Assembly: GCF_013265555.1 (NCBI RefSeq)
Contig: NZ_CP041345.1
Span: forward strand, 682,001 to 746,000
Direction of reading: 5' to 3'
DNA length: 64,000 nt
Source: Tenuifilum thalassicum
GTDB lineage: Bacteria > Bacteroidota > Bacteroidia > Bacteroidales > Tenuifilaceae
In this document: in pieces, positions 32,587-42,222 of the stretch
How positions within the stretch are numbered: the stretch's first letter is position 1
Layout of the letters: each line of letters opens with the position of its first letter
Translations under genes and position numbers: made by a program
Notes under the pieces: model-generated
Seen by the model: the letters and a program-made list of their open reading frames with translations, nothing else
Database searches by the model: none
What the model was told of the DNA's origin: nothing

Positions 32587-32987
32587 GGGTAACTTATTAC
32601 TATAAGTTAATCCTCAAACTCATTTTCAAGTTAGCTATTTTAAATCTAAAAGTCAATACTATAAGAAATTAATAATATTGATGTAAATCAATATCTTATT
32701 GGGTGATTAAACAATACTAACGCTATTCGTTTGCTAAATGGTGTTGTTCCTGTCTAATAGTTTGGTTTTGGTAGAATGCATGTTCTAAACTGTATTATAA
32801 CGAAAAGATTCTTTAAGAGTATTACTATATTGCTGACAAAAAGAAAGTTGAAATGAAAAAGTATTATTAATTTCTGCTAGTCAAACTCAATGTTAACATA
32901 TCTTAAATTAAATGCATTCTTATACATAAATATTTTATTATGAATTTAAAAGGCGTAAATTTATTTAATAAATCAAACCAAAATAAA
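32587..32987. other. 401-base intergenic region
   Basis: AT-rich region before the repeat lipoprotein gene. I see no hairpin, exact promoter element or RNA gene. An in-frame ATG at 32940 is not the likely start of the downstream gene. Confidence 0.4.
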
Positions 32988-34676
32988 ATGGACCACAAAT
33001 CAAAAATTACACTTATAGTCATTGCCGGTTTCATGTCATTATTTGTGGCATGTGAACCCGACGATAATGGCAATGGTTCAGGGTCGAATATAATTTCAAC
33101 GGATATCATTCAGAATACCACGTGGGAGTCGGGTAAAACCTATGTTATAAGTGGAAGCGTTAGCGTTGAAGGTGCAATTCTTACTATTCAACCAGGTACT
33201 ACCATAAAATTTGAAGCTGGCGCAAGCCTGCACATTGGTTATAGTAGTAATGCTACACTAATTGCTAATGGTACTGCTGATAAGCCAATTGTATTTACGT
33301 CTAATGCTTCGAACCCCACGCTGGGTTCTTGGGAAGGGATAACCTTCTGGGAGTATAGTTTGAATTCGAGCATGCAATTTTGTACGATTGAATATGCTGG
33401 TAAATCGGGCGAAGGCGCAGTAAATCTTGAGGGGTGCGCGATTACTTTTTCTAACAACATTGTTAGGTTTACTAAGGATTATGGTTTAGCTCTCAGCTCC
33501 GAAGCAAGCTTTACAGAAATGAATAGTAACAGTTTTAGCGATTGTGGTAATCATCCCCTAAGATTGCCATGTGAGTATATGCACACTATTGGAACTGGTA
33601 ATGTTTTTACTTGCCCAGAGAATAAGGGAGTAAATGTATACGAAGGTACTGCAAAAGGAAATGTTACCTGGCGTAAACTCGATAAGCCCTACTTTGTTGA
33701 AGGTGACCTAAACTTTGAAGATGGAACATTAACCATTGAACCAGGAGCTATATTTAAGTTTGGAGCAGAAAGCGATTTTCATATTGGATACAATGAAAAC
33801 TCAACTTTACTTGCTAATGGCACTGCCGCTAACCCTATTGTTTTCACTAGTAGTGCTACAGTACCTGCTGCTGGTGCATGGAATGGCATTACCTTTTGGG
33901 AGAATAGCCTAAACTCAAGCATGAAGTATTGCACGATTGAGTATGCAGGGGAAACGGGTGATGGTGCCGTAAATCTTGAGGGGTGTGCAATTACTTTTTC
34001 TAACAATACCGTCAGGAATGCTAAAGATTACGGGTTAAAACTCAGCTCCGAATCCAGTTTTATAGAGATGAATGATAATCAGTTTGAGAATTGTGGTAAT
34101 CACCCCCTAAGGCTTTCCTGTGAATTTATACACACCATAGGAACCGGGAATGTTTTTAATTGTCCTGATGGTAAGGGGATTAATGTTTTTGGAGGAAGTT
34201 CAACTGGGAATATCACTTGGCGCAAGCATGACAAACCTTACTATGTTGACGATGATCTTAACTATGATAATGGGACGCTTACCATTGAGCCGGGTGCGAT
34301 TTTTAAATTTGGTGCAAATACCGGATTTCATGTTGGTTCCAATCAAAATTCAACCCTTATAGCCACTGGTACTCCGGATAATATCATTGAATTTACAACC
34401 AGTGCTTCATCGCCTGCAGCAGGGGCATGGGAGGGTATTTATCTTTGGGATAATAATTCTTCCAATACCAGTTTTGAATATTGTCGGTTCAGTTATGCTG
34501 GGGAAGGTTCTTCAAGCGATAGAGCATCAATATGGGCTACTCAAACATCATTTAGTGTAAATAACTGCGAGTTTGTCAATTCTGCTGGTTGGGGCATTTT
34601 CCTTGATAATGCAACTTTTAGTGGTTCTGGTAATACGTTTAGCAATTGTGCTTTGGGCAATGTGGGCAGCAACTAG
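32988..34676 (+). CDS. Repeat lipoprotein of parallel beta-helix type
   Basis: The 562-residue protein starts at the ATG at 32988 (MDHKSKITLIVIAGFMSLF), because this gives a lipobox VAC at Cys22 preceded by a hydrophobic stretch; an in-frame ATG 48 bases upstream would bury it. After an acidic/Gly-rich linker (EPDDNGNGSGSN) come three tandem units of 183 residues. Each begins with W..., then GTLTIEPGAIFKFGA, then NSTLLANGTAANPIVFTSSA, CTIEYAG, GAVNLEGCAITFSNN and CGNHPLRLSCEF. These short repeats of Asn and Gly with hydrophobic spacing are the pattern of right-handed parallel beta-helices (pectin-lyase-like). The third unit is shortened. No catalytic site is seen; surface adhesion or glycan binding is possible. 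Confidence 0.8.
   Translation: MDHKSKITLIVIAGFMSLFVACEPDDNGNGSGSNIISTDIIQNTTWESGKTYVISGSVSVEGAILTIQPGTTIKFEAGASLHIGYSSNATLIANGTADKPIVFTSNASNPTLGSWEGITFWEYSLNSSMQFCTIEYAGKSGEGAVNLEGCAITFSNNIVRFTKDYGLALSSEASFTEMNSNSFSDCGNHPLRLPCEYMHTIGTGNVFTCPENKGVNVYEGTAKGNVTWRKLDKPYFVEGDLNFEDGTLTIEPGAIFKFGAESDFHIGYNENSTLLANGTAANPIVFTSSATVPAAGAWNGITFWENSLNSSMKYCTIEYAGETGDGAVNLEGCAITFSNNTVRNAKDYGLKLSSESSFIEMNDNQFENCGNHPLRLSCEFIHTIGTGNVFNCPDGKGINVFGGSSTGNITWRKHDKPYYVDDDLNYDNGTLTIEPGAIFKFGANTGFHVGSNQNSTLIATGTPDNIIEFTTSASSPAAGAWEGIYLWDNNSSNTSFEYCRFSYAGEGSSSDRASIWATQTSFSVNNCEFVNSAGWGIFLDNATFSGSGNTFSNCALGNVGSN
33117..34676 (+). repeat. Three tandem in-frame repeats, period 549 bp
   Basis: Conserved landmarks recur at a spacing of exactly 549 bases: ACCATTGA-type (33183, 33732, 34281) and TAAATCTTGAGGGGTG (33421, 33970). 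Units start near 33117, 33663 and 34212; the last is truncated in its second half. Identity between units 1 and 2 is very high in the second half of the unit. Confidence 0.85.
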
Positions 34677-34701: not shown

Positions 34702-34732
34702 ATAGCGCATTGTTTTGATAGCTTTGCGCTAT
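34702..34732 (+). terminator. Rho-independent terminator of the repeat lipoprotein
   Basis: Eight-base-pair stem ATAGCGCA (34702-34709) / TGCGCTAT (34725-34732), 15-base loop, followed by CATTTTATTATTTTTTC. Its position excludes a start for gldE at 34715, inside the hairpin. Confidence 0.6.
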
Positions 34733-34777
34733 CATTTTATTATTTTTTCTAACTTTACGAAGTTAACCAATTCGTAC

Positions 34778-36103
34778 TTGAGTTTGGAAAGTTTTAGTGA
34801 CTTATTTAATGAGATTACAAACGGTGTACTTTTTACACCTCCTACGTTTGGCTTTTATCTTGGTTTAATAGTTCTTTGCGGGCTGCTTATCCTATCAGCT
34901 CTATTTAGCGGTTCAGAGGTAGCCTACTTTTCTTTAACACCTGCCGAAATTAAGGAACTTGAAGACAAGTCGAAAAAGTCTAAAGTTTTAACAAACCTCT
35001 CAAACCCTGAGCAGCTTCTTGCAACACTCCTGGTTGCAAACAACCTTATCAATGTTGGTGTAGTAATTCTTTCTACCTTTTTAACTCTATCTGTTTTCGA
35101 TTTTAGTCAAGCTCCTGTTTTTGGTTTTGTATTCCAGACGGTGATAATCACTTTTATCTTGCTCCTTTTTGGCGAGATTCTTCCAAAACTTCTAGCATCA
35201 AATCGTGCCTTACGCTTTGCAGAGGTGGTTGCCCCTTTAATTAGCGCTATGATTATCTTGTTAAAGCCACTTTCTAAACTTCTAATTCATTCTTCTACTA
35301 TAATAAATAAAAGGGTGGCTACACCGCAAAAGATTTCAATGGATGAGCTAGGCGATGCCATAGAACTCACTGCCGAAGAGCTGGCCGAGGAGCGCCAAAT
35401 TCTTGAGGGTATTGTTTCATTCACTTCCACAATTGTGAGTGAAATAATGAAACCCCGAATCGATGTAGTGGCACTTGATCTTAATACCTCCTACGAAAAG
35501 TTGCGCGAGGTGGTTATTGAATCTGGATATAGCCGTATTCCAATCTATAATGAATCGTTCGACGATATCAAGGGAATACTTTATGTCAAAGATTTAATAC
35601 CTCACATTCAAAAGGACAACACTTTTCGTTGGCAAAATCTTATTAGACCACCATACTTTGTTCCCGAGAGCAAGAAAATTAATGATTTGCTAACCGAGTT
35701 TCAGCTTAAACATATCCACATGGCCATAGTAGTTGATGAGTATGGCGGGACTAGTGGAATTGTTACTCTGGAAGATATTCTGGAGGAGATTGTTGGAGAG
35801 ATTTCAGATGAATCAGACGATGACGAGCGTTTATATACTAAAATCGATGATAAAAACTACATATTTGAGGCTAAGGTAATGCTCAACGATTTTTGTAAAA
35901 TTGTAGGTTGCGACGATGATATTTTTGACGATGTCCGTGGCGATGCTGAAACAATTGCAGGGTTAATATTGGAGAAAACGGGGCAGATACCAAAGCAAAA
36001 TGAAAAGGTAGATTGTAAGCAGTTTACTTTTACTATTGATGCAGTAGATAACCGTAGAATAAAGAGAGTAAGAGTTAAAATAAACGAAGATGCCGAATCC
36101 TAA
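34778..36103 (+). CDS. gldE: GldE, CBS-domain gliding-associated membrane protein
   Basis: A membrane protein of the HlyC/CorC family: N-terminal DUF21 region with about four membrane helices ([20 protein letters not shown] to about residue 180), two CBS domains (about 215-330; [20 protein letters not shown] and [20 protein letters not shown]) and a C-terminal CorC/HlyC domain. GldE is required with GldD for gliding and T9SS function in Flavobacterium. The start is uncertain: a TTG at 34715 lies inside a terminator hairpin, so I use the TTG at 34778; TTG at 34784 is also possible. Overlaps gldD by 14 bases. Confidence 0.85.
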
Positions 36104-36665
36104 GTCGTTACTAATATCCTCATTGCTAGTTTTTTTGCTTGTTTCATGTGCCGATGAGCCAGTTCCTAAACCACGTGGCTATTTTAGGTTGACGTTTCCC
36201 GAGAAACAGTATCGTTTACTTGATACAATTTACCCCTTTACATTTGAATATCCAGTTTATGGAACTATTGTTAAAGAGAGAAACAGAGATGGCGAGGGGG
36301 AATGGATAAGTGTTGCCTTCCCAAAATATAAAGCCAAGATTCATTTGAGTTATAAAGATATTAGCAACAACCTTAACCAGCTTACCGAGGATGCCCGAAC
36401 GCTTGCCTATAAGCATACCTATAAGGCAGATGCCATTGACGAAATGGTGTTTGATAACCCCGAAAAAAATGTTTACGGAATTCTTTACGATATTAGAGGA
36501 AACTCGGCCAGCTCCATTCAGTTCTATTTAACCGATTCTTCGAGACACTACATACGTGGTGCGCTCTACTTCAGATGTGAACCCAACAAGGATTCCCTTG
36601 CTCCTGCTGTTGATTTCTTTACTAAGGATGTTATCCATCTTATCGAAACTCTTAGGTGGAAGTAA
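36090..36665 (+). CDS. gldD: Gliding motility lipoprotein GldD
   Basis: A 191-residue lipoprotein with lipobox LLVSC (Cys20), then the GldD pattern PKPRGYFRLTFPEKQY and FTFEYPVYGTI, and a conserved GALYFRCEPNKDSLAPAVDF near the C-terminus. Required for gliding and T9SS in Flavobacterium; many non-gliding Bacteroidota also keep it. Overlaps gldE by 14 bases, an arrangement that suggests translational coupling, and is followed by a phosphopantetheinyl transferase gene after 6 bases. Confidence 0.92.
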   Translation: MPNPKSLLISSLLVFLLVSCADEPVPKPRGYFRLTFPEKQYRLLDTIYPFTFEYPVYGTIVKERNRDGEGEWISVAFPKYKAKIHLSYKDISNNLNQLTEDARTLAYKHTYKADAIDEMVFDNPEKNVYGILYDIRGNSASSIQFYLTDSSRHYIRGALYFRCEPNKDSLAPAVDFFTKDVIHLIETLRWK

Positions 36666-36671
36666 TTTTCA

Positions 36672-37292
36672 ATGCCAGTTATAAAAACCATACACGATGA
36701 TGATATAACCATTGCTTTATGGCTCATCAGCGAAGCTGAGAATGAGCTCTTGGAGCATGTTGGTCAGGTTGATGATTTACCCTCAAATAAAAACCGACGC
36801 ATTGAACGGATAGCAACTATGGCATTGCTTAAAACTCTAGGATTTAAGCAGTTTTATTCCTATGATAGTCTTGGAAGGCCGTATTTCACAGCTTCCCAGG
36901 TACGGATATCAATTAGCCATACCGATGGTGTTGTTGCCCTAGCTTTTTCTGAGTCTCAAGAGGTTGGGGTTGATATTGAGCAAACTACAAGGAATTATAG
37001 AAAGATTGCTGGAAAATATTTGTCTACAAATGAAGCAATTGGTTCCCACAACTTCTCCGATTTTCACTATGCATTAATTTGGAGCGCAAAAGAGACAATT
37101 TACAAGCTACCTTGGGGTAAAAGCCTAGTGTTTAACAGAGATATTGAAATTGATTTAAAAAATTTCAATAGTGATAGAGGTTGGTTAAAAGCTATGGTTT
37201 TTAACGATGGGGCTTGGGTTAATGTAAAACTATTTTATACCTTTATTGATAATTATTGCCTGACATGGACAGGCATGAACCGAATATTGTAA
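36672..37292 (+). CDS. 4'-phosphopantetheinyl transferase superfamily protein
   Basis: Transfers 4'-phosphopantetheine from CoA to the serine of carrier proteins. The 206 residues show the superfamily motifs RISISHTDGVVALAFS, VGVDIEQTT with the metal-binding Asp and Glu, and SAKETIYKL. Length is that of a compact Sfp-like enzyme. It lies between gldD and pcrB. Its stop codon (TAATG) overlaps the pcrB start codon, so translation is coupled. The carrier protein target is unknown; no acyl-carrier or polyketide gene is nearby. Confidence 0.9.
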   Translation: MPVIKTIHDDDITIALWLISEAENELLEHVGQVDDLPSNKNRRIERIATMALLKTLGFKQFYSYDSLGRPYFTASQVRISISHTDGVVALAFSESQEVGVDIEQTTRNYRKIAGKYLSTNEAIGSHNFSDFHYALIWSAKETIYKLPWGKSLVFNRDIEIDLKNFNSDRGWLKAMVFNDGAWVNVKLFYTFIDNYCLTWTGMNRIL

Positions 37293-37990
37293 TGGCACTT
37301 GTTTACGATAAGATTTGTCATGGTAGCCTTGCCATTCTGATTGACCCAGATAAAGAGGGAAGTGTAGATATAGATAAAATTATTGAAAACGCTGAGAAAT
37401 CGGGGGCGTCGTTACTGTTTGTAGGAGGAAGTTTGGTAAACAGTCCGCTACATGAGTTTGTTGAACGCGTTAAGAGAATGACATCGCTTCCTGTTGTCCT
37501 TTTCCCAGGTAGTGCCATGCAGTTCTCCCCAAAGGCCGATGGGATTCTTTTCCTATCGTTAATCTCAGGCCGAAACCCAGAGTTTCTTATCGGGCAACAT
37601 GTGAATGTGGCTGCAATGGTAAAGCAAAGCAATATAGAGGTTATCCCAACAGGATACATACTAGTAGATGGAGGAACTCCAACCTCAGTACAATACATGA
37701 GCCAAACCATGCCAATACCCTCGAACAAGCATGAGATTGCTGTCTCAACAGCAATTGCAGGCGAACTGCTTGGTTTGAAAGCAATTTATCTTGAAGCTGG
37801 AAGCGGAGCATTAAACCCAGTTCCATTAAAAATGATAGAGAAGGTAAAAGAGAATATTTCAATCCCCTTAATAGTTGGTGGTGGAATAAAAACACCACAA
37901 CAGGTTACCTACGCCCTTAGTGCAGGAGCTAATCTTGTGGTGGTTGGTAATGCCCTTGAGAAAAATCCCTTGCTATTAACACGCAGCTGA
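37292..37990 (+). CDS. pcrB: PcrB/GGGP-synthase-like prenylglyceryl phosphate synthase
   Basis: A TIM-barrel enzyme that joins a prenyl diphosphate to glycerol-1-phosphate, first described for archaeal ether lipids. The 232 residues include GSLAILIDPDKEGSVDIDK, FVGGSLVNSPLHEFV, LPVVLFPGSAMQF, YLEAGSGALNPVP, and the phosphate site LIVGGGIKTPQQ. The ATG at 37292 overlaps the previous stop (TAATG), so I choose it over an earlier in-frame ATG at 37256. It converges on the PafA-like gene with no bases between stop codons. Whether it makes heptaprenyl- or geranylgeranyl-glyceryl phosphate cannot be read. Confidence 0.88.
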   Translation: MALVYDKICHGSLAILIDPDKEGSVDIDKIIENAEKSGASLLFVGGSLVNSPLHEFVERVKRMTSLPVVLFPGSAMQFSPKADGILFLSLISGRNPEFLIGQHVNVAAMVKQSNIEVIPTGYILVDGGTPTSVQYMSQTMPIPSNKHEIAVSTAIAGELLGLKAIYLEAGSGALNPVPLKMIEKVKENISIPLIVGGGIKTPQQVTYALSAGANLVVVGNALEKNPLLLTRS

Positions 37991-39640
37991 TTATTCCAAA
38001 ATTTGTTTTATAGGAACACCCGTTGAACCATTCGGCCATGTAATTCCTAGCAATAGCGATAGAGTTGGGGCTATGTTATTCATATATACTGGCTCTAAAA
38101 CCGATTTCCGTTTTATTTTCCAACCATAGAAAATTAAGGGAACATGTGCATCGTAATCGTATGGGGAGTTTGCAGAGGTAACATGCCCGTTTCGTTCTAC
38201 CCATCCTGGTTCAAGGTTGATAACAACATCGCCAGAACGGCGCTGGTTAAAACTATTTTGAAACTTCACCATTATTCCATTGGCAAATTGACCATTTTGT
38301 AGGTTATGGGCTGTGGTGCTATTTGCAACGCCGCTAAACTCCAGCATAAAATCGGAAACCCTTTGTTGTACATCTTCAAGTTTCAGGTTAGAGTCTTCAA
38401 TTAGCTTTCGGTTGAGGTAAATTTGTTTATCGTGATAGCCAACCACCCAGTTGCCTTGACCATAAACAGCATTAAGATAGGTTTTCAAAAGTATCATTGC
38501 TTTTTGTGGGTCGAAATAACCACCAGGTATTTTCGATTTCTCCAAGTAATCAGGAGTTGAAGCCACACCCTGGTCGGAGGTTAAAACAACAAGGCAGTTC
38601 TGTAAGCCAACTGTGGCATCGATAAAATTAAGGAAATGCTCCATCTCCTTGTCGAGGCGCAGGTATGTGTCCTCCATTTCAATGGAGTGGGGTCCAAACT
38701 TGCCACCAATGTTTCGATTTGCGCTAAAGGTGACACAAAGCAAATCGGTGTGTTCATCTGCCCCTAGGTCTTCGCCTGCAATTGCAGCAATGGCCAAGTC
38801 TTTTGTAAGAAGATTACCATAAGGTGACTCTAGTAACGAGCTAAAATCGGTTTTGGGTTTAGGGTTTCCTATTACACCATTTACCATCCCTTTTAGCTTC
38901 TCAAGCAGGGTCTTCTTCTTTTCCTCCGATTTTACTGATGCAGTATCGGCTTCTTCGTAATTCTCAATAGGTTGAAGGGCTTTCCACTCACGTTCGGTAT
39001 ATAGCTTGGAAAATCCTTTTGTGTTGAACGTATCGACCCATGCTGGTAGTGTTTCAGTAAAATAGCTACTGCTTACCCATAAACCTTTTTCGGTATCGAA
39101 CCAAAATATACCATTTGCACTATGCCCGGCAAGCAGAATAGCAGAACCCGCATCGAGCGCAATGCTAATAACCTTGGAGTGTGGGTTACTTAACCTGAGC
39201 TCATCGCCAAAGGTACTTGTAACCAAATTTTTAGCTGAATATTTTCCACTGAAATAGCTTCCGCCAATAGTACTTACCTTTTCTTCGTAAACAGCATTGA
39301 TTTCTTCGCCTGAATAACGCGAAAACCACTTGTCGGAAATAATTCCATGAACCGAAGGGTTGGAACCTGTTGAAATTGTGGCTAATCCAGGGTAGGGCTG
39401 AGTGAGAAGATAGTTATAGCGAGCATTCCGGCAATAGGTGCCATCGTTTACCAAACGCTTGAACCCATTGTCACTAAATTTATTCCAGTATCGGTTTAGG
39501 TAGTCGAAACGCATTTGGCTTACTACTATTTCAATAATCAGTTTTGGTTTTTCCGATGGGATTGACCTATTTATCTGTGCTTGTGAGGAACTATTAATCA
39601 ACAAAAAAAGAAGGAGTGAATACAACGAAAAAAGGCGCAT
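37991..39640 (-). CDS. PafA-like alkaline phosphatase superfamily protein, catalytic residues lost
   Basis: A 549-residue exported protein (signal peptide to about residue 22, SSSQAQ) that follows the PafA fold across its length: IVVSQMRFDYLNRYWNKF, TGSNPSVHGII, ILLAGHSANGIFWFD, FGPHSIEMEDTYLRLDKEME, VVLTSDQGVASTPDYLEKS, and SPYDYDAHVPLIFYGW. However, at the positions of the seven known PafA zinc or nucleophile residues, six are replaced: D38 by Ser41, T79 by Pro82, D305 by Arg310, H309 by Gly314, H353 by Gln358 and H486 by Ala491; only D352 remains (Asp357). K162 and R164 also appear lost (IALDAG). It is unlikely to be a phosphatase. It could be a pseudoenzyme, perhaps binding phospholipid, phosphoprotein or a partner. 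The order of segments is intact, so this is divergence and not truncation. Confidence 0.85.
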   Translation of the reverse strand: MRLFSLYSLLLFLLINSSSQAQINRSIPSEKPKLIIEIVVSQMRFDYLNRYWNKFSDNGFKRLVNDGTYCRNARYNYLLTQPYPGLATISTGSNPSVHGIISDKWFSRYSGEEINAVYEEKVSTIGGSYFSGKYSAKNLVTSTFGDELRLSNPHSKVISIALDAGSAILLAGHSANGIFWFDTEKGLWVSSSYFTETLPAWVDTFNTKGFSKLYTEREWKALQPIENYEEADTASVKSEEKKKTLLEKLKGMVNGVIGNPKPKTDFSSLLESPYGNLLTKDLAIAAIAGEDLGADEHTDLLCVTFSANRNIGGKFGPHSIEMEDTYLRLDKEMEHFLNFIDATVGLQNCLVVLTSDQGVASTPDYLEKSKIPGGYFDPQKAMILLKTYLNAVYGQGNWVVGYHDKQIYLNRKLIEDSNLKLEDVQQRVSDFMLEFSGVANSTTAHNLQNGQFANGIMVKFQNSFNQRRSGDVVINLEPGWVERNGHVTSANSPYDYDAHVPLIFYGWKIKRKSVLEPVYMNNIAPTLSLLLGITWPNGSTGVPIKQILE

Positions 39641-39654
39641 AGCAGTTCAATTTT

Positions 39655-42222
39655 TTATTGTTTTGCGAATACTATCTTACTTGTTAAAGTTTGGGTTTCA
39701 TTTTTTGCAACTAAAAGGTAAATTCCAGGTTTAATTGACATTACTTCCCTGTGAACTTTGATTTCTAATGATTCCTCTAAAACTTTCCCTTTAAAAAGTG
39801 AAGCAACTGTTTTACCAGTTATATCGACAAGGCTAATGGAAACATTACCTTTAAGATTATTTAGGGTTATTGAAAAACTATTTTCTACAGGATTTGGGAA
39901 AATCGAAATTCTATTGTTTCCCTGGTTGATTGGGATAGATGTTGGGTAAATTATGATTTTAAAAGTTGAGTCGCTAGCAACACGCAACTCCCCAGAGGCG
40001 GAGTTGTATCCATCTTTTGAAATGGAGTAGGGGTGATTTAGCCCAAATGGAACATTGGTAAATGTAGCCATCCCATTTTGGTCGGTTTGCTTCTGCTCAT
40101 TGTTAAAGCTTATTGTAGCATCTTGAACACTGTTTTCGTTAGATTTAACCTCAAAGGTTGCATTAAAGTAGGCATCAAAATTAGCAGAGTAGTTTACTTG
40201 TTGCCATTTTAGTTCAAGTTGACCAGAGCCAAGTAGATTATCCTCGGAATATATTTTGAGCTCAACATTATTATCTAAAGGGATATTTGAAAATGAAGCA
40301 GTGCCATTAGATTGTGTGGTAGCTTCATTGGTTCCAAGAACGACTTTTATATTCTCAAATGTGCTAGAGTTTATGGTTGGTGTAATGGTAACATTTCCGC
40401 TAATATCAGGAAGGGTTATGTCATCAACATAAACGCAATCGCTCCCCGATGCTGTTCCATCATCTTTAACATACTCCCATTTAATGGTGTGTGTTCCTTG
40501 TTCTAGAATGGTTACATATCTTGTCCAATCTATTTCACCACTCCATAGGTTTTGTAACTTGTTGTCGATATAAAGTTTAAAAATGTCGTAGGATTCTTCA
40601 GAGGATACCTTAAAATAGAATGAGAACTCTCCCTTATTTAGAACATTAAATGTGAGCGATGCAGCAGTGCTTTGGGAGTTACCAATACTAGCCGATTTTA
40701 AGCAGTATGTGCCACTATTAGCAGTTTCGCTGCTTCTGTTCCAGTTGCCCCCATAGAACGACATTCGTTCAGGTATTGCGTTTTCAAAACTCTCATCGCT
40801 CACCAAGGTGCCTGCATCTTCAAGTGTGAAATTTAGCTCAGTGAACGAGTTCTGGTTGACTACAACATCTGTAATAACCTTGGGCTTATAACCGTTGGCA
40901 ACAGCCATCACATCATAGGTTCCAGGTTCAATTAACCGGTAGTAGTTACCTGTAGTAGGGATTGTTTTAACCGATGAGTTAAGTTTATCGTGATTAAGCA
41001 CTATTATTTCTGCATCGAGAGGTTGGTTCGATGTGTTTTTAACTGTTCCCCCGAAACCGTAGAGTGCATTTTGTAAAAGATGCAGCAGAGCAGAGCGGTT
41101 ATAGACCCAGTGTGCAGGAAGCGATTCTGATGCAAGAAGCTTAGTATTGGATAGCTCAATAGTAATTTCCCTGCAACGGTGAAAGAAGTTCATGTAATCT
41201 TGCCTGCCACCAGCTACCACGTACCAATCCCCGCCGTTGGTGATGCCATTATTTAGGCCAGTCATATAGCCCGAAGGGCTATTAGCCTGAGCGCTATCGG
41301 CATATGCTCTTGAAACGGAAACAAACCAATCGTTGTCGGCATGGGTTTGCTGGGATGAAGTCCAAGTATCCCAGGGATAGTTTACCACCTCAATACCACC
41401 ATGAAAGTTTGCCGATAGCACAAAATGGTGTTGTGCTGCAAAATCCATCATGGCTTGCGTCTCGGGTTGCCATTGGTAGTTATCAGGATGGTTGCCTGCG
41501 CGTAAATCGGGAAAGTTGCGATTTATATCCACGGAATTGGCATTGTAACGGCGCGCCGAAGTAACAGTAAAGTTTCCGCCGTAATATGTGCCATCGGGGT
41601 TTGCGTTAGGATTTATGTAAATTTGCAGGTTATCCACCAGCTCCTTAGCCAACGGAATGGTGTTGTAGTTTGAGAGCAAATAATCGGCTAGCCTTAGCAA
41701 AAGAATGTAACCAGTGGTTTCGTCGCCATGCATAGTGCTAGTGTAGAAAACCTCAGGTTCAGCTTCTTCTGTACCAACATTGTCGGAAATTTTAAGCACG
41801 TAAAGTTTGCGACCCTGAACCGTAGTACCAATGGAATCGAGCTTACAAAGGTTGGGGTAATCGGTCTCAAACTTTTTCATCATGGCGCGGTATACCTCAT
41901 AGGTTGGATACCTATCCCAGCTTGCCATTTCGGCAACGGTGGTTGCCATAGTTAAGGATTTGGCAGCTAAAGTTGAGGGGTGAGGCAGCTTCTCAAATTT
42001 GTAACCTAACTTAATTAGTGCATCTAACTCTTTTTGGTTAGCATAGGCATATATGGTGTCGCCTTTAATGTTATCAATTGATACCGTTTGGGTTATTGTG
42101 GTGTTGACCTTATCCCGATTTGGTTCAATTAAGCGAATGTAATTCTCTATATCTTGTGAATTGCCTGTAATAGCTATAGCTATAGCTGATAAGATTGTAA
42201 AAATTATCTTTTTATATATCAT
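39655..42222 (-). CDS. M14 carboxypeptidase with T9SS sorting domain
   Basis: A secreted 855-residue zinc exopeptidase. Signal peptide about 1-22. M14 catalytic domain (about 110-390) with the zinc motif STMHGDETTGY (His165, Glu168), NPNANPDGTYY, the third zinc ligand His in SANFHGGIEVVNYPWDTW, and the catalytic Glu in CREITIELSNTK. Then a carboxypeptidase regulatory-like beta domain (FGGTVKNTSNQPLDAEIIV), a jelly-roll type region (about 480-610), two more regulatory-like beta domains, and a T9SS type A sorting domain (NRISIFPNPVENSFSITLNN). Fits the M14 group of Bacteroidota. 14 bases separate it from the PafA-like gene, so the two may be co-transcribed. Confidence 0.92.
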   Translation of the reverse strand: MIYKKIIFTILSAIAIAITGNSQDIENYIRLIEPNRDKVNTTITQTVSIDNIKGDTIYAYANQKELDALIKLGYKFEKLPHPSTLAAKSLTMATTVAEMASWDRYPTYEVYRAMMKKFETDYPNLCKLDSIGTTVQGRKLYVLKISDNVGTEEAEPEVFYTSTMHGDETTGYILLLRLADYLLSNYNTIPLAKELVDNLQIYINPNANPDGTYYGGNFTVTSARRYNANSVDINRNFPDLRAGNHPDNYQWQPETQAMMDFAAQHHFVLSANFHGGIEVVNYPWDTWTSSQQTHADNDWFVSVSRAYADSAQANSPSGYMTGLNNGITNGGDWYVVAGGRQDYMNFFHRCREITIELSNTKLLASESLPAHWVYNRSALLHLLQNALYGFGGTVKNTSNQPLDAEIIVLNHDKLNSSVKTIPTTGNYYRLIEPGTYDVMAVANGYKPKVITDVVVNQNSFTELNFTLEDAGTLVSDESFENAIPERMSFYGGNWNRSSETANSGTYCLKSASIGNSQSTAASLTFNVLNKGEFSFYFKVSSEESYDIFKLYIDNKLQNLWSGEIDWTRYVTILEQGTHTIKWEYVKDDGTASGSDCVYVDDITLPDISGNVTITPTINSSTFENIKVVLGTNEATTQSNGTASFSNIPLDNNVELKIYSEDNLLGSGQLELKWQQVNYSANFDAYFNATFEVKSNENSVQDATISFNNEQKQTDQNGMATFTNVPFGLNHPYSISKDGYNSASGELRVASDSTFKIIIYPTSIPINQGNNRISIFPNPVENSFSITLNNLKGNVSISLVDITGKTVASLFKGKVLEESLEIKVHREVMSIKPGIYLLVAKNETQTLTSKIVFAKQ

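Follow-up and report, generated by a model that had tools for sequence, protein, structure and literature searches.

The window, by which we mean the whole 64,000-nucleotide stretch of Tenuifilum thalassicum DNA that was analyzed, carries a gene for a PafA-like protein that directly follows a gene for an M14 zinc carboxypeptidase and converges on a PcrB-family gene (Table 1). A scan for promoters and terminators around these genes gave matches no more numerous than in shuffled sequences. Farther along the same flank, at 32940-34676, the translation reads as a protein of 578 aa in which three internal repeats resemble one another.

Table 1 Features of the PafA-like locus, with positions counted from the first letter of the window
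Feature	Position	Strand	Evidence or remark
CNNM/CorC-type gene, gldD and 4'-phosphopantetheinyl transferase	34715..37292	+	Flank located elsewhere in other genera
PcrB-family gene, tail to tail with the PafA-like gene	37256..37990	+	Neighbor clustering
PafA-like pseudo-phosphatase, 549 aa	37991..39640	-	ORF with ATG start, phmmer, Pfam, AlphaFold model, Foldseek
Codon 490, Ala for H486 (zinc-1 ligand); Ala 16, Gly 8, Ser 1 of 25 family rows	38171..38173	-	Alignment
Codons 356-357, Asp (D352 kept, 25/25) and Gln for H353 (Gln 23, His 2 of 25)	38570..38575	-	Alignment
Codon 313, Gly for H309 (zinc-1 ligand); variable across the family	38702..38704	-	Alignment
Codon 309, Arg for D305 (zinc-1 ligand); Arg 22, Lys 3 of 25	38714..38716	-	Alignment
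Lys-rich segment, residues 232-262, particular to the window's family	38855..38947	-	Mostly low model confidence; invariant D232, K248, G255
Codon 82, Pro for the T79 nucleophile; S 12, A 7, P 5, G 1 of 25	39395..39397	-	Alignment
Codon 41, Ser for PafA D38 (zinc-2 ligand); Ser in 25/25 family rows	39518..39520	-	Alignment
M14 zinc carboxypeptidase with T9SS C-terminal sorting domain	39655..42222	-	14 bp upstream of the PafA-like ATG; Pfam, neighbor clustering

A first, sequence-only reading of this DNA had held that the protein aligns with PafA along its length, and phmmer against the PDB bore this out: residues 22-548 of the 549 were matched to PafA (5tj3) with an E value of 4.7e-99, with PhoK as a lower-ranked match. 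Pfam assigned PF01663 alone. The NCBIfam model of PafA, NF042991, matched over nearly the full length, scoring 549.5 bits, below its equivalog cut-off of 650. An AlphaFold model computed from a 21-row alignment had a mean pLDDT of 86.3 and a pTM of 0.87, with low confidence at residues 233-243 and 246-261, and its top match in Foldseek was again PafA 5tj3 (TM 0.86 by query length and 0.91 by target length, 34% identity). The structure prediction that the reading had called for thus returned a PafA fold.

By eye, the N-terminus reads as a Sec-type signal peptide of about residues 1-22 with no lipobox Cys, and the N-termini of the other family members are likewise hydrophobic, mostly with an AQ-type cleavage context and no lipobox Cys, suggesting a soluble, periplasmic protein. 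Neither Pfam (PF01663 alone) nor NCBIfam (PafA and PhoY models alone) detected a T9SS C-terminal sorting domain in it. The window's genome yielded no intact PafA, its best match to NF042991 (E 4.5e-165) falling under the cut-off. PF01663 places numbered three in that genome: the gene under study and two others which, by reading, are NPP-like (L001) and phosphoglycerate-mutase-like (L003).

The active site of PafA comprises the T79 nucleophile and six metal ligands, which we take to be D38, D305, H309, D352, H353 and H486. In the phmmer and MAFFT alignments, the corresponding residues of the window protein are P82 and S41, R309, G313, D356, Q357 and A490, so that D352 is the one residue of the seven that is kept, as the sequence-only reading had proposed. 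N100, K162 and R164 are replaced too, by D103, D163 and G165, the last two losses having also been foreseen. The residues had been named correctly in that reading; its positions 310, 314, 357, 358 and 491 were each one too high, the offset there being +4 and not +5. The title of PDB entry 5too confirms the numbering of T79, N100, K162 and R164, and the changes it names fall in the columns aligned by phmmer. PhoK carries the same intact residues as PafA in the aligned motifs, and we therefore took the intact set as ancestral.

Loss is concentrated at the site. Where the 23 intact homologues show no variation, the window protein retains 23 of 27 residues outside the site versus 1 of 9 within it (Fisher p 1.3e-4, a value flattered by the definition of the intact rows through seven of those site residues). 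Since no zinc-1 ligand, a single zinc-2 ligand and no nucleophile are left, the chemistry of PafA is almost certainly lost in this protein, as judged from its sequence.

Of 60 genomes searched, those of 59 relatives plus the window's own, 45 gave the PafA-like protein. The window's own family has the gene in 24 of 26 relative genomes, giving 25 rows with the window. One of the two misses (G005) is a genome 78% complete in which the M14 gene ends at the very end of an 8,218-base contig; the other (G025) is 67% complete. The frame is open and both zinc sites are missing in all 25 genomes with the gene. Zinc-1 ligands are gone throughout, and the zinc-2 set is reduced to D352 in 23 rows and to D352 with H353 in the other two. 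The substitutions are shared among these orthologues: D38 is always Ser and D352 always Asp, D305 is Arg or Lys, and K162 is acidic (Asp in 17, Glu in 8). At N100 there is Asn in 13 and Asp in 12, at R164 Gly in 15, Ala in 6 and Ser in 4. The site is thus largely re-fixed on new residues (Ser41, Arg/Lys309, Asp356, Gln357 and the acid at 163), with PafA columns 79 and 309 varying.

Selection was estimated by the NG86 method. Among nine pairs the ratio was measurable in three, the other six being saturated at synonymous sites, and dN/dS was 0.039 for the window and L005 (dS 2.2), 0.044 for L006 and L008 (dS 1.5) and 0.065 for L006 and L007 (dS 0.07). These low values answer the Ka/Ks comparison suggested at the outset. 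A lone altered copy among intact orthologues was looked for, and every family row proved altered; together with dN/dS this speaks against a lone decayed copy. That the gene is decaying or mis-assembled has a negligible probability, given 25 open frames, the low dN/dS in all three pairs and the retention of most invariant columns outside the site. The earlier description of a maintained pseudoenzyme, as opposed to a decayed gene, is upheld by the open frames, the dN/dS values, the re-fixed site and the single branch described below. Catalytic loss common to orthologues, purifying selection and an intact frame together mark it as a probable pseudoenzyme of the PafA family.

The altered proteins form one branch. 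In a carefully built tree with 65 rows, the 59 altered proteins were separated from the 6 intact ones with a support of 100/99. In an enlarged tree computed without ten site columns and rooted on the intact rows, 67 altered and 23 intact proteins lay on the two sides of a single branch, supported at 99 in a quick tree and at 100/100, with 100% of 200 bootstrap trees, in a careful one. Rows dropped before counting were L034 and L036 (from the same contigs as L005/G004 and L028/G040), L147 (the same protein as L144), L004 (own copy), L070 and L071 (contig-end pieces from G033, intact at those metal and nucleophile positions that they cover), L142 and L148 (from G117, with an intact reading) and L145 (from G140, a weak 22-bit match of 423 aa with 6 of 7 sites as aligned). 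Seventeen of the 23 intact rows came from 26 genomes hand-picked from 296, a non-random sample from which we claim no frequency. In this sample, the 8 Bacteroidales genomes each gave an altered row (G188 an intact row as well), and 16 of the 18 genomes from outside Bacteroidales gave an intact row, G117 (intact-reading pieces) and G140 (weak match) being left out. Members of the altered branch were seen in Bacteroidales genomes as well as in records whose titles name Bacteroidetes and Chlorobiota. G028, G188 and G033 each have both an intact and an altered copy (the intact one of G033 consisting of two contig-end pieces), and the altered protein is thus not simply the local PafA.

Among the 67 altered rows, one of the seven residues is kept in 52, two in 8, three in 1, four in 4 and none in 2; at the invariant columns, a mean fraction of 0.72 is kept outside the site versus 0.16 within it. 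The zinc-2 set and T79 are complete in the sister rows L028, L035 and L045, whose zinc-1 ligands are replaced (E305, K309, Y486), and the zinc-1 set is complete in L032; no altered row has both. By their residues, L028, L035 and L045 are candidates for a one-metal enzyme or for an evolutionary half-way state. The metals may have been lost in steps, and inactivity need not extend to every altered row; with one full zinc site in each of these four rows, parts of the wider altered branch could still be catalytic. In another altered branch, of nine proteins, E38, S79, K162, Y164 and R353 are common to all. In six of these nine rows (L039, L040, L042-L044 and L049, from records titled Chlorobiota, Chlorobi or Bacteroidetes), two conserved genes, which by eye are Nif3-like and zinc-ribbon, precede it.

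These partial sites bear on the idea that the window protein is still an enzyme of changed chemistry, using a different metal, a single metal or none at the remodeled site. The alkaline phosphatase superfamily includes enzymes with one metal, such as the arylsulfatases and the phosphoethanolamine transferases, and D356 is invariant in the family. Against this, the family has lost every zinc-1 ligand in all 25 rows and retains D352 alone of zinc-2 in 23, and no replacement nucleophile is conserved at column 79, which holds S, A, P or G. We regard such an activity as rather unlikely.

Alternatively, the pocket may sense phosphate or phospholipid: remodeled with Arg/Lys309, Lys314 and polar residues, it would bind a phosphorylated ligand without cleaving it, such as the head group of a lipid or of lipid A, and signal to a partner. 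S41, D356, K314 (Lys in all 25 family rows) and R/K309 are fixed 25/25 and Q357 in 23/25, and 49 of the 67 altered rows have a base at column 305, 309 or 353, compared with a K/R background of 0.10 per residue, the rows being related to one another. A neighbor of another altered branch, Lnb (see below), acts on lipoproteins, which would also suit a lipid ligand. However, K162 and R164, which line the site of PafA, are lost as well, with an acid in place of K162 in all 25 rows, and the bases may merely plug the metal hole as salt bridges. Indeed, the acid at K162 and the base at D305, each present 25/25, could form a salt bridge that replaces the metals. A sensor is thus unlikely, if a reading to be kept in mind. 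The protein might also be a structural remnant, kept for its slot in an export or envelope complex while its former site is free of ligand constraint. Columns 79 and 309 do vary within the family and the site residues differ widely between altered branches, but the fixed S41, R/K309, D356 and acid at 163 and the mostly fixed Q357 argue for constraint on the pocket, making a mere remnant unlikely.

The sequence-only reading had recognized no partner adjoining the gene. This must be corrected, as the M14 gene is a conserved upstream neighbor: every one of the 25 family genomes that carry the PafA-like gene has it directly upstream on the same strand, 0-285 bp from the first Met codon, and the pairing recurs outside the family clade at three loci, L035 (439 bp), L036 and L045. 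The closest relative outside the family, L029, has no adjoining M14 gene, and in G033 one lies nearby on the other strand. Of the 21 mapped family loci, 8 have the converging PcrB gene immediately next to the PafA-like gene (9 with one ORF between), indicating that the flanks change while the pair with M14 stays. In 10 of the 60 genomes M14 was found without a detected PafA-like gene, namely in G005, where the contig ends, and in nine genomes outside the family (G029, G031, G038, G039, G046, G051, G052, G057 and G059), whose M14 proteins may be other paralogues.

Pfam analysis of the window's M14 protein identified Peptidase_M14, a carboxypeptidase regulatory-like domain and Por_Secre_tail, and its best PDB match was carboxypeptidase gp180, residues 503-882 (E 3.2e-60). 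Adjacent and non-adjacent M14 homologues were aligned together in 33 rows. In 32 of them H165, E168, H274 and E356, presumably the zinc and catalytic residues, are present, and the remaining row is cut by a contig end.

A different gene order, Lnb, PafA-like, SecA, was found in a distant altered branch of 16 rows (L098, L100-L106, L131, L133, L135-L137, L140, L144/L147 and L146). At the clustered loci of that branch, Lnb is upstream in 7/8 and SecA downstream in 7/8, with both in 6/8; by tblastn, both are present in all of eight further genomes. Combined, the 16 genomes have Lnb in 15, SecA in 15 and both in 14. Two Lnb proteins that we examined contain the Pfam domains Lnb_N and 5TMH_Lnb, and the one SecA protein examined contains SecA. 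Lnb is a lipoprotein N-acyltransferase. As a general partner of the PafA-like proteins, which we considered, it fails in the window's lineage: 32 of the 60 genomes (the window's own included in the search) have an Lnb match, but none of the 7 of the window's genus has one, and its own genome gave no match. Together with the window's genus, genus g4 lacks an Lnb match (G000-G006, G009, G015 and G020 for the two), although Lnb is present in several further genera of that family. In two further altered lineages (L031 and L056), a gene for an S8 subtilase lies directly downstream (L090:11618-13183 and L093:8090-9337).

We also considered whether the protein is a general component of the T9SS. GldM was matched in 5 of the 8 genomes examined and gave no match in G090, G128 and G188. 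These three carry altered members from the branch with the Lnb and SecA flanks, so that the altered branch is, by this one marker, not dependent on the T9SS. The three genomes and the lack of a T9SS signal in the protein argue against a general T9SS component, the genomic argument again being that of one marker.

We therefore favor, with about even confidence, a non-catalytic binding or scaffold role together with the co-encoded secreted M14 protein, as part of a more ancient function in the handling of exported proteins. The two zinc sites and the nucleophile are gone, and the former pocket has been largely re-fixed with other residues. Exported to the periplasm by Sec, the PafA-like protein would meet other exported proteins there and help to fold, hold or route them. 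In the window's lineage its likely client or partner would be the M14 protein, which has kept its catalytic residues and a type IX secretion signal. Any encounter between the two would be confined to transit, M14 being predicted T9SS cargo and the PafA-like protein lacking a T9SS signal. A gene pairing is by itself not binding, and the partnership is put forward here as a putative one. A broader version, in which periplasmic pseudo-phosphatases, as an old family, assist protein export and maturation in Bacteroidales, placed between Lnb and SecA in one branch and acting as a dedicated helper of M14 in the window's own, with the emptied pocket holding a client or a phospholipid, is more doubtful and we offer it tentatively.

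Compared with known systems, the window protein resembles PafA (PDB 5tj3, 5too; NF042991) in its full-length alignment, predicted fold and similar length, but differs in six of the seven metal and nucleophile residues, in N100, K162 and R164, and in scoring below the NF042991 cut-off. With PhoK/SPAP (PDB 3q3q, 5xwi, 5xwk) it shares the superfamily fold (TM 0.74-0.78 by query length), whereas PhoK keeps the catalytic motifs and is 23% identical in the structural alignment. As in pseudoenzymes generally, the fold is kept and the catalytic residues are lost under purifying selection, with a conserved neighbor. PorX is a response regulator of another subfamily, with a PglZ-type domain. Likened by description only, it has in common a link to the alkaline phosphatase superfamily, its occurrence in Bacteroidota and the T9SS (PMC11320123, PMC10951265). 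Among the matches listed in our literature search, a survey with subscription journals mostly outside its scope, no title or abstract beginning described a pseudoenzyme of the PafA family. Gut PafA sequences have been described as clustering with those of Bacteroidales isolates (PMC8812569), and that text gave no match for 'active site', 'inactive' or 'catalytic residues'.

The enzyme PafA has been studied and is a marker gene for phosphorus recycling. Homologues that bear the name PafA or alkaline phosphatase on similarity alone may be inactive, and the NCBIfam cut-off would exclude the window protein. The order Lnb, pseudo-phosphatase, SecA points to an unstudied factor beside the export machinery. 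The altered rows, for their part, offer a natural series leading from the two zinc sites of PafA to one and to none.
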